Source: Ruegeria arenilitoris
GTDB lineage: Bacteria; Pseudomonadota; Alphaproteobacteria; Rhodobacterales; Rhodobacteraceae
Direction: 5' to 3'
Assembly (NCBI RefSeq): GCF_013032855.1
Contig: NZ_WQDA01000001.1
Location: 1,185,501 to 1,249,500, forward strand
DNA: 64,000 nucleotides
Every line of letters starts with the position of its first letter. The first letter of the stretch is position 1. Shown one piece after another: positions 46,842 through 53,459 of this stretch. Made by a program: the position numbers and the translations under genes. The notes under the pieces were generated by a model. The model was not told the origin of the DNA and did not search any database. It saw nothing but the letters and a program-made list of their open reading frames with translations.

Positions 46842-48263
46842 TTAGGCCGCGTTCTGTTTCATCCACACCTGGTTCCGGCCTGCCTGTTTTGCCGCATAAA
46901 GCGCCTTGTCCGCGCATTTGATCAGGCTTTCGGCCGACAGTGAGCCGTCTGGAAGTGGGGAGAAGGGTGGCTCGCATACCTTCAGCCCGATGCTGACCGT
47001 CACCGGAAGCCGGGCAGGAATGTCCGGCAGGACGATCGGTACGCTGCTGACGCCGCTGCAGATATCGGCCGCCTTCCTGAGCGCCTTTTCGCGGGTCGCG
47101 TTTGGCAGTCCGAACAGGAATTCCTCTCCTCCGATGCGGGCGAGGAAGCCGTCAGGTCCGAAAGCGCGCTTCATCCGTTTTCCGGCCTCGACCAAAACCC
47201 TGTCACCGGCACTGTGGCCATAACGGTCATTGATGGATTTGAAGTGGTCCAGGTCGGCCAGCATGATCGCAAAACCCCGCTGTTTGTGCACCGAACTGTG
47301 CAGCAATTGGTCCATCGCGGTCTGTGCGAAACGACGGTTGTTCAGGCCGGTCAGCGTGTCGATCCACGATTCCTCAATCCCACGGCGCAATGAGTCGCGC
47401 ATTTGCTCGTCATGCGCCTTGCGTGCAATCAACGCCTCGACCCGAAGCGATACTTCGTCAGGGCAGAACCCTCCGAGGCAAATTGCATCGGCGCCGCGAT
47501 CCAGGGCCTCGGCGGCAAGAGTGGCGTTGTCATCGGGAATGATTCCGATCAGAGCGGTCCGCCGAGTGCCGGTGCGGGATTTGAGGTCGGCCAACATGTT
47601 CAGGCCGGATGGATCGCTGTTCAATTCGACAACAATCGCGTCAGGTATGGTGCCGGACAAGACTCCGCTGAGGTTGGGCAGGGTATGGCTGCACACCGAA
47701 TGCTGCGTTCGTCCGTTCAGGGCCTTGTGCCACAGCGTGCGAGTACGTGCGGTGTGGGCCAAGACGGCGATCTGACCATGCCGCGCGGGCGTGATCATTG
47801 CTGCGGGGGCTTCGGCAAATCCCACGGATTGAGGGTTGCCACTGTTCTTCAGATCCTGAGTTTCCGCACGGGCGCGCAGCAGGCTTCGCACACGCGCCAG
47901 CAACAGCGTATCTTTGAACGGATAGGCCAGAACGTCATCCAGCCCCTCGGACAGGTTCCGCAGCCGGGCGGTCCGATCGTTCTGAGGCGCAATCGCGACC
48001 ACAGGGACATCCTGCAGGGCCGGAACGGACAGCATCAATCTTTTGACGTCGCCCGCGTCTCCGTCGGGTAGTGTCTGGGCCGTCAGCACCAGATCCGGCC
48101 GGGTCCGCCGCAGCAACGCCCCAAGACCAGCCAGCTTCTCGCCCTGCACGACATGATACCACGCCGCCGTCAGCTGCACCTTCAGCATGATGCGATTGGT
48201 CGAGACCCCGTCGAGGACAAGGATGGTTCCCTGCACGGACATTGTTTTCACCGTAGATTGCAT
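46842..48263 (-). CDS. PleD-like diguanylate cyclase with degenerate receiver domains
   Basis: A 473-residue protein laid out as two receiver-like domains and a GGDEF domain, the PleD architecture. The cyclase motif is intact: GGEEF at residues 378-382, with DTLTGLNNRRF and LADLDHFKSINDRYGH. No RxxD inhibitory site precedes it (the place reads GPDG). The first receiver lacks key residues: the aspartate pair is LDG, the phosphoacceptor place in PDLVLTAQTLPDGD is alanine, and the conserved KP lysine reads YPF. The second is more eroded. Activation by phosphorylation is therefore doubtful. Start at 48263 or, closer to PleD, at ATG 48242. Confidence 0.88.
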   Translation of the reverse strand: MQSTVKTMSVQGTILVLDGVSTNRIMLKVQLTAAWYHVVQGEKLAGLGALLRRTRPDLVLTAQTLPDGDAGDVKRLMLSVPALQDVPVVAIAPQNDRTARLRNLSEGLDDVLAYPFKDTLLLARVRSLLRARAETQDLKNSGNPQSVGFAEAPAAMITPARHGQIAVLAHTARTRTLWHKALNGRTQHSVCSHTLPNLSGVLSGTIPDAIVVELNSDPSGLNMLADLKSRTGTRRTALIGIIPDDNATLAAEALDRGADAICLGGFCPDEVSLRVEALIARKAHDEQMRDSLRRGIEESWIDTLTGLNNRRFAQTAMDQLLHSSVHKQRGFAIMLADLDHFKSINDRYGHSAGDRVLVEAGKRMKRAFGPDGFLARIGGEEFLFGLPNATREKALRKAADICSGVSSVPIVLPDIPARLPVTVSIGLKVCEPPFSPLPDGSLSAESLIKCADKALYAAKQAGRNQVWMKQNAA

Positions 48264-49453: not shown

Positions 49454-51013
49454 ATGGCCGACACGAATACTCGCAAGCGCAGGGGTGGTGGACGCGCAGG
49501 CGCTGCAGCGCGCCGCGGTGCGGCAGTCATCGACCAGATGCCATGGAACCCGCCGATCAACATCGACCGGCCAACCGAACCGTTGGGCCCCGAGGGCGTC
49601 GAAGCCATCCATGACGGCGCCATGCGTATTCTCGAGGAAATCGGCATCGAGTTCTACAATCAGGAAGCCTTGGAGATCCTGCGTGAAGCTGGATGCATCG
49701 TCAACGGCGACAACGTGCGCATGGGTCGTGACTTCGTTATGGAAATGGTCGCCAAGGCGCCGTCGACCTTTACCATCACGCCGCGCAACCCGAACCACAC
49801 GATCGAGATCGGCGGCAAGACGATGTTGTTCGGAAATGTCTCGTCACCGCCGAACTACTGGGACATGGAGATCGGCAAGAAGGTTCCCGGCAACCGCGAA
49901 ATGTGCCAGAACCTGTTGAAGTTGACGCAGTATTTCAACTGCATCCACTTTGCCGGAGGCTACCCGGTCGAGCCGGTTGACCTGCACGCCAGCGTCCGGC
50001 ACCTGGATGTCCTTTATGACAAGCTGACGCTGACGGACAAGGCGATGCATGCCTATTCGTTGGGCAAAGAGCGCGTAGAGGATGTCATGGAAATGGTGCG
50101 CATCGCAGGCGGTCTCAGCCACGAGGAATTCGAGGCGTCACCGCGCATGTACACCAACATTAACTCGACCTCGCCTCTGAAACACGACCACCCGATGATC
50201 GACGGGTGCCTGCGGCTGGCCCGGCGGGGGCAGGCCATTGTCGTCACGCCGTTCACTTTGGCGGGGGCGATGGCCCCGGTAACCATGGCCGGTGCCGTTG
50301 CGCAGTCGCTGGCCGAGGCGCTGTGTGCGATTGCCTTGTTCCAGTACGTCCGGCCCGGCATCCCATGTGTCATCGGGACGTTCACCTCGAATGTCGACAT
50401 GAAGTCCGGTGCGCCCGCGTTTGGCACGCCTGAATACATCCGGTCGACCCAGATGACCGGCCAGATGGCGCGGTTCTATGGGCTGCCCTTGCGCTCGTCC
50501 GGTGTCTGCGCGGCCAATGTGCCGGACGGCCAAGCTGTCTGGGAGACGTCGAATTCACTCTGGGCGGCGGTGCAGTCGGGGACCAACATGGTCTATCACG
50601 CGGCCGGATGGCTGGAGGGCGGCCTGATCGCGAGCCCGGAGAAGTTCATCATGGACTGCGAGATATTGCAGCAAATCCAAAGATATATGCAGCCCGAGAT
50701 CTGCGCCACAGGCCCGGACGAAATCGCACTGGAAGCCATCCGCGCGGTCGGGAACGATGGGCACTTCTTTGGCATCCAACACACGCAGGATCGCTATACC
50801 ACCGCGTTCTATCAACCCTTCCTGAGCGATTGGAAAAACTACGAGGGCTGGGAAGTCGCGGGCGGGATCTGGACAGCCGAACGGGCGCATCTGATGTTCA
50901 AGGAGATCATCAACAGCTTTGAGGCTCCGCCCATGGATGAGGCGATCCGAGAGGAACTGGCTGACTTCGTCGCACGTCGCAAAGCCGAAGGGGGCGCGCC
51001 GACCGATTTCTGA
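49454..51013 (+). CDS. Trimethylamine methyltransferase (MttB) superfamily protein, non-pyrrolysine type
   Basis: A 519-residue protein of the MttB superfamily, corrinoid-dependent methyltransferases acting on quaternary amines. Typical text includes GVEAIHDGAMRILEEIGIEF, FGNVSSPPNYWDMEIGK, NINSTSPLKHDHPMIDG and GGLIASPEKFIMDCEI. There is no in-frame amber codon, so it belongs to the non-pyrrolysine branch whose few studied members demethylate glycine betaine, proline betaine or carnitine. The first 25 residues are basic (KRRGGGRAGAAARRG). No corrinoid protein or methyltransferase partner gene is adjacent. The substrate is unknown; betaine-like compounds are a family-based guess. Confidence 0.88.
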   Translation: MADTNTRKRRGGGRAGAAARRGAAVIDQMPWNPPINIDRPTEPLGPEGVEAIHDGAMRILEEIGIEFYNQEALEILREAGCIVNGDNVRMGRDFVMEMVAKAPSTFTITPRNPNHTIEIGGKTMLFGNVSSPPNYWDMEIGKKVPGNREMCQNLLKLTQYFNCIHFAGGYPVEPVDLHASVRHLDVLYDKLTLTDKAMHAYSLGKERVEDVMEMVRIAGGLSHEEFEASPRMYTNINSTSPLKHDHPMIDGCLRLARRGQAIVVTPFTLAGAMAPVTMAGAVAQSLAEALCAIALFQYVRPGIPCVIGTFTSNVDMKSGAPAFGTPEYIRSTQMTGQMARFYGLPLRSSGVCAANVPDGQAVWETSNSLWAAVQSGTNMVYHAAGWLEGGLIASPEKFIMDCEILQQIQRYMQPEICATGPDEIALEAIRAVGNDGHFFGIQHTQDRYTTAFYQPFLSDWKNYEGWEVAGGIWTAERAHLMFKEIINSFEAPPMDEAIREELADFVARRKAEGGAPTDF

Positions 51014-51157
51014 TAGCGCATCATCGGGCAGGCAGCTGGAACGGCAGGATATCTCATCCTGAGATTTCCGTGAATTTTCCGCATCTTGAACTGCCGCATT
51101 TGGCCTTTGTTAAGATCTTTGAGGTGGGATCGGCATGAAACCTTTTTGAGGGCATTC

Positions 51158-51742
51158 ATGCACGGATTGATCAACAGGGCAGTTCAATCGTTTGTATGCG
51201 CGACCTATGGGCGTGAGCGCTGGCTTCGGGCGACCGAGGCCGCTGAACTTGGGTTCGCCGAGTTCGAAGCGATGCTCGTCTACGACCGGGAAAAGTCATA
51301 TCGCCTGCTGGACGTGGTCTGCGATCAATTGAACCGTTCGCGGGACGAGTTTCTGGAAGATCTCGGAACCTATCTGGTCTCACACCCCAACATGGAAGGA
51401 TTGCGGCGCCTTCTGCGCTTTGGCGGCGTTACCTATGTCGAGTTTCTGCAGTCTTTGGATGATCTGGCCGACCGGGTCAAACTGGCGGTCTCTGACCTTG
51501 AATTGCCTGCCCTGGAACTGCTGGAGCGTTCGCCCACAGAATTCGAACTGCGCTGCCATCCCGGGCTGGATGGGTATGCCAATGTCATGATCGGGATCTT
51601 GCGAGCAATGGCGGACGACTATGGCGCGCTCGTGATTCTGAGGCATGCCGGGCAGAGGGGCGGGGTGGACGTCATCTCGATGGTTCTGGTCGAAAGCGCC
51701 TTTGCCGAGGGTCGTCACTTTGATCTGGGGGCGCGGAACTGA
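51158..51742 (+). CDS. H-NOX-like protein lacking the proximal heme histidine
   Basis: A 194-residue protein with the H-NOX fold pattern: MHGLINRAVQSFVCATYG at the start, VCDQLNRSRDEFLEDLGTYL, LRRLLRFGGVTYVEFLQSLD and a C-terminal RAMADDYGALVIL. Aligned by eye with soluble guanylate cyclase (FLQNLDALH), the proximal heme histidine is alanine here (A104 in LDDLADRVK). The YxSxR phosphate/propionate motif is also missing (region FELRCHPGL). Ordinary heme binding is therefore unlikely. It overlaps by one base a gene with an HNOBA-GGDEF protein, the partner expected for H-NOX signalling. ATG 51158 was chosen because the family starts MHG or MKG. Confidence 0.82.
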   Translation: MHGLINRAVQSFVCATYGRERWLRATEAAELGFAEFEAMLVYDREKSYRLLDVVCDQLNRSRDEFLEDLGTYLVSHPNMEGLRRLLRFGGVTYVEFLQSLDDLADRVKLAVSDLELPALELLERSPTEFELRCHPGLDGYANVMIGILRAMADDYGALVILRHAGQRGGVDVISMVLVESAFAEGRHFDLGARN

Positions 51743-52734
51743 TGATGGATCTGGATCAACTGGGCAGGATGTTGGAGACGTTGTGCCCGATGTTCACCTT
51801 GGTGGATCAGGATGGGCGTATCCTTCAGGTCGGGCCGACACTGCAAAAACTGCGCCCCGACCAGCCGTTGGTTGGCAGCGAATTTCTGGAAATATTTGAA
51901 CTGGTAAGGCCCAGAACCGTGACGACTCTGCCGGCGTTGATGGCGACGGCAGGTACCAAGCTTCATCTCAAGCTTCACGATGAACCGCGCACAGCATTGA
52001 AGGGTTTGGTGGCGCCGCTGCCTGACGATGCAGGCGCGGTTATCAACCTGTCCTTCGGGATCTCGATCCTGGACGCTGTACGGGATTATGCCCTGACAAG
52101 TGCGGATTTCTCGGGAACCGACCTTGCGATTGAGTTGCTCTACCTGGTCGAAGCCAAGTCTGCGGCGATGGAGGCTTCGAGGTCGTTGAACCTGCGGCTT
52201 CAGGGGGCAATGCTTGCGGCCGAGGAACAGGCCTATACGGATACTCTGACCGGCCTCAAGAACCGGCGCGCGATGGACCACATTCTCGAGCATTTGGTTT
52301 CAACGAAATCCACTTTTGCGTTGATGCATCTGGACCTGGATTTCTTCAAAGCCGTGAACGACGAATTGGGGCATGCCGCGGGCGACTATGTGCTGTCCCA
52401 GGCCGCCCGGATCATGCTGGAAGAAACCCGCAGCGACGACACGGTCGCCCGGATCGGCGGCGATGAATTTGTTCTGATATTCAAAAGCCTGTCGAGCAGG
52501 GCTCAGCTTGAACGGATCGCCAATCGCCTGATTGGCCGCCTTCAGAAACCGATGGTTTTCGAGGGCGAGACCTGCGCGATTTCGGCGAGCATCGGGACCG
52601 CACTTACGTCACAGTTTCTGTCCCCGAAACCGGCTGAGATTCTGCACGCGGCGGATTTGGCCCTTTACGAGGCCAAGCGAAACGGTCGGTCGTGCCATCG
52701 CTTCTATTCCGAAGAGGCGCGGGCACCGGAGTAG
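51742..52734 (+). CDS. HNOBA-GGDEF diguanylate cyclase
   Basis: A 330-residue protein. Residues about 10-60 match the heme-NO-binding-associated (HNOBA, PAS-like) domain: FTLVDQDGRILQVGPTLQKL and EFLEIFELVRP. A helical linker (about 130-165) leads to a GGDEF domain with DTLTGLKNRRAMD, HLDLDFFKAVNDELGHAAGD and the active GGDEF at 239-243; RSDD (230-233) is an intact RxxD inhibitory site. It should make c-di-GMP under feedback control. The start overlaps the H-NOX-like stop (TGATG). An alternative ATG is at 51745. Confidence 0.92.
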   Translation: MMDLDQLGRMLETLCPMFTLVDQDGRILQVGPTLQKLRPDQPLVGSEFLEIFELVRPRTVTTLPALMATAGTKLHLKLHDEPRTALKGLVAPLPDDAGAVINLSFGISILDAVRDYALTSADFSGTDLAIELLYLVEAKSAAMEASRSLNLRLQGAMLAAEEQAYTDTLTGLKNRRAMDHILEHLVSTKSTFALMHLDLDFFKAVNDELGHAAGDYVLSQAARIMLEETRSDDTVARIGGDEFVLIFKSLSSRAQLERIANRLIGRLQKPMVFEGETCAISASIGTALTSQFLSPKPAEILHAADLALYEAKRNGRSCHRFYSEEARAPE

Positions 52735-52763
52735 ACCGGTGCGTCGGTAGGCTGGTTGCTTGA

Positions 52764-53459
52764 CTACTCAGCGAAAGCCCCGTCCAATGTCCGCGCGATG
52801 TGCGACTGGATTTCATCCAACTCGCCGACCACAGGCAGCACCGGGCCACGAAATGCGGCCTTGCCCAGCTCGGCGGGAATATCATCCAACACGTGGCCCC
52901 CGGTGCAGGCAAAGAACGGCAGGCAGATCGCATGATCCCCGGTCATTTGGGCGGCGTCACTGATCGATGGGGGTTCTTCGACAAATCCACAGCGGATTGA
53001 TTTCAGTGATATCAACCCGGCCAAACGGTCAGCGAATTCGTGGGTGACGGCTGCCGGGTTGCGGCTGCGGCCTGAGCCGTGTGCGGCAATAAGCAGATCC
53101 GTGGACGTGGTGCTCCAACCTAGCTCGTCGATCAAGGGTTGCAGGGCGCGCGCCACCAGGTTGGGTAGCTGCGGGTCAACGCCCAACGGGTCGAGTTGCC
53201 GAACTGCGCGCCCTTCAAGGCGCTTGGGAAGCGCAGAAGTCACGAACCATCCTTTCGCCATGAACAATGGATAAATCGCGCTGCCGTCCGGAATGTCATC
53301 AAGGACCTTTTCCAACGCGCCTGGCGCGGCGAGGGTCGCCGATCTGACTGTGACTCTATCCGTAAGTTGATCGATCCGAGCGGCCAGTATGGCCAGAGAT
53401 GCCTCGGCCGGACCTGGGTCGGAGGGTTGGCCATGCGCTACGATGACGGCAGTCGGCAT
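52764..53459 (-). CDS. CbiX/sirohydrochlorin chelatase-like protein
   Basis: A 231-residue protein made of two chelatase-like halves, each opening with the family histidine: VIVAHGQPSDPG and LIAAHGSGRSRNP. CbiX-type enzymes insert cobalt, iron or nickel into sirohydrochlorin, but this long form in Rhodobacteraceae stands outside any cobalamin or siroheme cluster here, so its metal and substrate are open. It follows the AEC transporter gene by 63 bases on the minus strand and converges with the diguanylate cyclase. Confidence 0.8.
   Translation of the reverse strand: MPTAVIVAHGQPSDPGPAEASLAILAARIDQLTDRVTVRSATLAAPGALEKVLDDIPDGSAIYPLFMAKGWFVTSALPKRLEGRAVRQLDPLGVDPQLPNLVARALQPLIDELGWSTTSTDLLIAAHGSGRSRNPAAVTHEFADRLAGLISLKSIRCGFVEEPPSISDAAQMTGDHAICLPFFACTGGHVLDDIPAELGKAAFRGPVLPVVGELDEIQSHIARTLDGAFAE

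Follow-up and report, generated by a model that had tools for sequence, protein, structure and literature searches.

A Group 5 H-NOX protein without the proximal heme histidine, coupled to an HNOBA-GGDEF diguanylate cyclase in Ruegeria arenilitoris

The 64,000-nucleotide stretch of the Ruegeria arenilitoris genome analysed here (the window; contig NZ_WQDA01000001.1, positions 1,185,501 to 1,249,500 of the forward strand) carries an H-NOX gene whose stop codon overlaps the start codon of a diguanylate cyclase gene by one base (TGATG), and the coordinates, frames and one-base coupling given in a previous sequence-only reading of this DNA were all reproduced (Table 1). The H-NOX protein is a member of the HNOB family (PF07700, 81.2 bits, E=1e-22, cut-off 25.5) and its partner matches GGDEF (PF00990) with 138 bits and HNOBA (PF07701) with 26.8 bits over part of the profile only (cut-off 23.4), the HNOBA domain being where the H-NOX protein is presumed to dock. 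Both domains, the GG[DE]EF motif and the RxxD I-site are present in the window cyclase. The GGDEF motif and I-site are also invariant in 31 aligned partners, and the earlier claim of intact active and inhibition sites is sustained; judged by these motifs the partner cyclase is apparently active. A promoter and terminator scan of positions 50950-52900 returned no promoter-like site and one terminator-like site, which is not above shuffled sequences.

Table 1. Features of the H-NOX/HNOBA-GGDEF gene pair (positions within the window)
Feature	Position	Strand	Remarks
GAGGG ahead of the H-NOX gene	51148-51152		
H-NOX-fold protein (HNOB) of Group 5 type, lacking proximal His and YxSxR	51158-51742	+	194 aa, ATG start
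Position of the proximal heme His	51467-51469	+	codon GCC, Ala104; faces Alr2278 H105
Position of the YxSxR heme-propionate motif	51554-51568	+	residues 133-137, C-H-P-G-L
HNOBA-long helix-GGDEF diguanylate cyclase	51742-52734	+	330 aa
HNOBA match	51769-51993	+	residues 10-84; PAS-like by strand/helix order in the model
GGDEF domain	52231-52692	+	residues 164-317
I-site RxxD	52429-52440	+	R230-D233
GGDEF motif	52456-52470	+	residues 239-243

The whole genome contains one HNOB match, one HNOBA match, two EAL matches and three GGDEF matches, two of the latter lying inside the window within 6 kb, and a genome with three GGDEF genes and a single H-NOX gene makes the pair a tidy test case. The second diguanylate cyclase of the window (46842-48263, minus strand, 473 aa, GGDEF) is located approximately 3 kb upstream of the pair, has by eye a receiver-like N-terminus of PleD-like character, and is matched with more than 300 bits in 44 of the 61 named loci of at least 12 kb. 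The gene directly preceding H-NOX (49454-51013, plus strand) we named by eye as MttB-type trimethylamine methyltransferase-like, and convergent with the cyclase gene is one likewise named as CbiX/SirB-like (52764-53459, minus strand), matched in 42 of the 61 named loci. Among 239 family loci, 109 have an MttB gene next to H-NOX on the same strand, as has the probable Dinoroseobacter shibae locus, too weak a link for us to retain MttB as the source of the input.

H-NOX proteins that sense NO or O2 through heme have a proximal His and a YxSxR motif, and the window protein has neither. In an alignment to Nostoc Alr2278 that is ungapped around the site, His105 ('DNLHARV') faces Ala104 ('DDLADRV') and Y134/S136/R138 face Cys133/Pro135/Leu137, as the sequence-only reading had described for both sites. 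A misalignment hiding a His can be ruled out, as the proximal site forms one column over 315 rows and no conserved His emerged from this better alignment. On these residues we infer that the window protein is heme-less.

The fold is nevertheless predicted to be kept. An AF2 model of the H-NOX protein built with 38 sequences has a mean pLDDT of 89.4 and a pTM of 0.86, with residues 184-194 under 50, and matches Nostoc H-NOX (2o09) with a VIA Z of 21.1 and an rmsd of 2.2 over 176 residues. Its best Foldseek match is 4iae (E 8.7e-13), Nostoc H-NOX bound to BAY 60-2770, a drug that takes the place of heme in H-NOX. Engineered removal of His likewise keeps the fold in the H103G H-NOX of Shewanella oneidensis (2kil, VIA Z 16.1 to the window model), which is reported to mimic the NO-bound state; that protein was however studied with heme, whereas the window protein additionally lacks YxSxR. 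The cyclase model (pLDDT 90.2, pTM 0.60) has a PAS-like strand and helix order to residue 116, a long helix at 125-164 and then the GGDEF domain. Soluble guanylate cyclase is built in the order H-NOX, PAS (HNOBA), coiled coil and cyclase, and the H-NOX domain of its alpha subunit is heme-free. The window pair has the same domain order but divides it between two genes rather than one chain and ends in another cyclase type; the human alpha chain was matched by the H-NOX model in Foldseek with an E of 6.5e-5, a weak match (TMq 0.47).

The alignment of A104 across Rhodobacteraceae homologues that the sequence-only reading had proposed was run over 248 loci, made up of the window locus, 29 from the rest of its genus and 218 from elsewhere in the family at one per genus, and His was found in only 16 of them. 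Pro is the usual residue (158), followed by Ser (26), Ala (14), Gln (10), Arg (10), Asn (6), Gly (4), Glu (2), Tyr (1) and Asp (1), and at one row per genus His amounts to 16 of 219 (7%), so that among the loci read a missing proximal His is the rule. Of the 296 family genomes in which HNOB was matched, 219 genera are represented by the loci read, and of the 54 genus genomes 30. Two loci (L148 and L336) are split into two frames each, hence 250 frames make up the 248 loci; a control stretch (L126), a locus with no frame found (L268), a duplicate of L001 (L031) and the named loci L062-L124, which in part repeat genus genomes, were excluded from the counts. The 64 frames of those named loci have Ser in 35, Pro in 19, Ala in 8, Thr in one (a named Ruegeria record) and a gap in one, with no His, while the 30 loci of the window's genus divide into Ser (22) and Ala (8). 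A complete YxSxR was found in none of the 248 loci. The canonical higher-scoring H-NOX proteins of the same family on the other hand have His in 28 of 28 and a complete Y-S-R in 27 of the 28 read.

The coupling to a cyclase is close to universal. An HNOBA-GGDEF gene lies directly downstream in 246 of the 247 loci whose downstream sequence extends to 700 bases or beyond, a recurrence far beyond chance, and the paired genes overlap by four bases in 138 of the 246 and by one base in 17. GG[DE]EF is present in all 246 partners and RxxD-5-GG[DE]EF in 242, and no natural fusion of H-NOX and HNOBA-GGDEF in a single chain occurs among the loci examined. At L149, which has too little downstream sequence, no partner was found. 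The sole exception to the coupling (L147, genome G070) has an HNOB protein with His and Y-H-R and no cyclase downstream; it may lie outside the subfamily and is possibly canonical or intermediate.

Selection holds the H-NOX gene. Within the genus the median dN/dS is 0.085 over 71 pairs, being those of 406 with a dS of 0.05-1.5 and with one genus locus (L016) left out, and the value is approximate because the median dS of 1.3 is near saturation. At one row per genus, Gly70 and Pro117 are invariant in 217 of 217 rows, and R84 and L85 in 216. That the gene is decaying and functionless might be read from the lost cofactor residues and from frames that are split in two of the 248 loci (L148, L336), one genus genome (G032) and one named Ruegeria record (L123), but this dN/dS speaks against gene decay, an HNOB match is found in 54 of 54 genus genomes searched, the coupling is retained as above and mutants of the Paracoccus denitrificans gene have a phenotype (PMC5588039); we give the idea next to no credence.

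Outside the genus an HNOB match is present in 296 of 394 family genomes, with 43 matches at or above 101 bits and the rest at or below 97.2 and no wide gap between the two. A profile of the subfamily (A1) matches 161 of 196 order genomes, some with canonical-like scores, and at class level 9 of 385 genomes; four of these lie beyond Rhodobacteraceae, score 65-94 bits and all have His and Y-S-R. In the genomes sampled the subfamily appears not to extend beyond Rhodobacteraceae sensu lato. Of the relatives at 70% identity or above that have record titles, 38 of 42 are titled Ruegeria.

The sequence-only reading had taken the pair for a candidate undescribed system, a claim that the literature does not bear out. 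Lee-Lopez and Yukl (2022; PMC8738867) describe a very large Group 5 of H-NOX proteins seeded by that of P. denitrificans, in which the proximal His is present in fewer than 10%, most members have Pro, the Gly hinges are kept and no Cys is conserved. The loci read here agree in His (16/248), Pro (158/248), the absence of a conserved Cys and the cyclase downstream (246/247), and these traits, matched to the published description, place the window pair among the Group 5 H-NOX/HNOBA-GGDEF systems, where it differs from most in having Ala rather than Pro at the proximal site. The legend of the neighbourhood figure of PMC8738867 names GGDEF, MTTB and HAD, three families also found around the window pair, among the neighbours of the five groups taken together. 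Loss of the proximal His in P. denitrificans and Rhodobacter sphaeroides was already in print (Kumar and Spiro 2017; PMC5588039). How Group 5 proteins sense anything is posed as a question in PMC8738867, and signalling by an H-NOX protein without a heme ligand is a problem stated in the field. In the literature searched, which left most subscription journals outside its scope, we found no ligand or heme analysis of a His-less Group 5 protein.

Canonical H-NOX proteins of Shewanella woodyi and Legionella pneumophila are reported to be heme NO sensors that control an adjacent c-di-GMP enzyme (PMC8846402); the window protein also adjoins such an enzyme but is without proximal His and YxSxR. More similar is the P. 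denitrificans pair HnoX (Pden_3719) and DgcA (Pden_3720), in which, as in the window, the genes overlap and the His is missing, and for which PMC5588039 gives mutant phenotypes. As that protein too has no His, its genetics are the best support for a heme-independent reading. A deletion of hnox in P. denitrificans led to metabolic changes but direct c-di-GMP measurement failed (PMC12582929), so that inhibition of the cyclase in this organism rests on genetics.

The account we favour, and consider somewhat better than an even bet, is that the window protein is a heme-ligand-independent and probably inhibitory partner of its HNOBA-GGDEF cyclase. The H-NOX-fold protein would dock on the PAS-like HNOBA domain and set cyclase activity, most likely by inhibition as proposed for P. 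denitrificans HnoX/DgcA, with a switch other than breakage of an Fe-His bond; fold and HNOBA interface would be kept and the trigger replaced. Two conserved segments of the H-NOX protein, RRLLRFGG (83-90) and ADDYG (152-156), are candidates for this interface. The trigger could be a molecule bound in the hydrophobic cavity that remains, another protein, or simply how much H-NOX protein is made under CtrA and quorum sensing control, and the output would be the c-di-GMP pool, acting on attachment, motility and gene transfer agent production. In Phaeobacter inhibens and D. shibae, mutants of the CtrA phosphorelay have hnox and one dgc gene turned down (PMC11974857), and in Rhodobacter capsulatus the neighbour of the H-NOX gene, rcc02629, is under CtrA regulation and has effects on gene transfer and motility (PMC9143464, PMC7232146). 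A point against this account is that in P. denitrificans NO also stimulated the biofilm of hnoX and dgc mutants (PMC5588039). The claim of the sequence-only reading that the pair senses something other than NO by heme is reasonable and has partial support. Most members read cannot use the ordinary Fe-His mechanism, and 'heme-less' is a term that we keep as inference.

The group may not be uniformly heme-free, since a probable orthologue of the window gene is listed as a heme NO sensor. One locus read here we take to be that of D. shibae, its H-NOX being Dshi_2815 and its cyclase Dgc1. It has the same HAD, MttB, H-NOX and HNOBA-GGDEF neighbours as the window, but its H-NOX keeps the proximal His (one of the 16) and has C-W-R at the YxSxR positions, leaving that motif incomplete. 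The D. shibae protein is listed in Table 4 of PMC8846402 as a heme NO sensor inhibiting Dgc1, and PMC7232146 likewise has it as an NO sensor inhibiting Dgc1 and names R. capsulatus rcc02630 as a homologue. Because D. shibae appears in the His minority, an NO mechanism like its own should not be assumed for relatives untested. The listing as a heme NO sensor speaks for the idea that heme is still bound through another residue or without protein ligation, with NO still sensed and the proximal His dispensable in the group. The biofilm of P. denitrificans does respond to NO (PMC5588039), and the approximate summed mean side-chain volumes at 33 presumed pocket positions are 4896 for the subfamily, 5079 for canonical family members and 4976 for Alr2278, so that the cavity need not be filled. 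As the probable D. shibae orthologue has His, however, it gives no demonstration of ligation without one; the 248 loci are without a complete YxSxR, and helix 93-110 has no conserved alternative His, Cys or Tyr in aligned relatives, position 98, often His in these, being highly variable and Gln in the window. We regard retention of heme as quite improbable.

The vacated pocket might instead bind another small hydrophobic signal such as a lipid, a tetrapyrrole precursor or a quorum-sensing compound, and a pocket ligand of this kind is the main alternative to control by the level of H-NOX protein. Besides the roughly kept volume, L73, L85, F96, P117 and L148 are near-invariant in the subfamily; the top Foldseek match is the drug-bound Nostoc structure above, and TRAPP subunit 3 with bound palmitate was matched by VIA with a Z of 8.3. 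A Z near 8 may however reflect a mere common arrangement, the pocket positions are presumed ones and there is no constant genetic link to one metabolite, the mttB gene being variably adjacent as described above. We consider such a ligand unlikely, if a serious contender. A redox sensor working through cysteines, as reported for the heme-free H-NOX of Vibrio cholerae, could draw on the Cys that occupies the YxSxR Tyr position in 150 of the 248 loci, window C133 included, but this position is Val in 49 and something else in another 49, no invariant or near-invariant Cys was found in 38 aligned proteins, and PMC8738867 gives the same for Group 5; we think this very improbable. The zinc-ligating Cys of the V. 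cholerae type is not conserved in the alignment, and a zinc/cysteine redox H-NOX was rejected as a candidate.

The distribution of His was analysed on one FastTree tree built jointly from H-NOX and partner, without the proximal column. Two split loci, L148 (His) and L336 (Gln), are blank owing to a wrong fragment and L147 and L149 were omitted, so that these tests hold 14 His rows and not 16. The 14 His rows among 215 need 14 changes, against a mean of 13.7 over 500 shuffles, all at or below that number, in a clustering test that at one row per genus has little power. In codon-weighted parsimony most of the changes to His start from Pro (10), which also gives way to Arg (9), Gln (7), Ala (7) and Ser (5), each of them one base away, and the cost is 64 base steps with regain of His allowed and 87 with regain forbidden. 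The tree was rooted on a single distant pair (L032), and the root state is a tie between A, D, H, N, P, S and T under codon weights and between A, N and P under equal weights. A scattered His and single-base changes centred on Pro suggest that heme does not constrain the proximal position and that drift reaches His as one state among several. This scattered pattern, as if drifting from Pro, is what is new here, and D. shibae may be an atypical model of the group. More tentatively, and with the odds rather against it, Group 5 could be an ancestrally heme-free H-NOX module with a non-gas input, its proximal site drifting round Pro by single-base changes and His returning many times independently, so that heme and NO sensing in D. 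shibae would be a secondary and repeatedly arising exception; with Pro, Ser or Ala in its signalling helix, the protein may be kept in the 'His-off' conformation to which NO brings canonical H-NOX.

Close to the lost YxSxR, a Trp is seen in 9 of 14 His-bearing loci (L125 to L321) as against 43 of 201 others (Fisher p 0.001), an association that over independent pairs was not significant and was excluded from the evidence. In one Rhodobacteraceae genome (G346, L032/L349) a canonical H-NOX with His and YxSxR adjoins a gene matching residues 13-313 of the window cyclase, an arrangement that is possibly the ancestral form of the pair.
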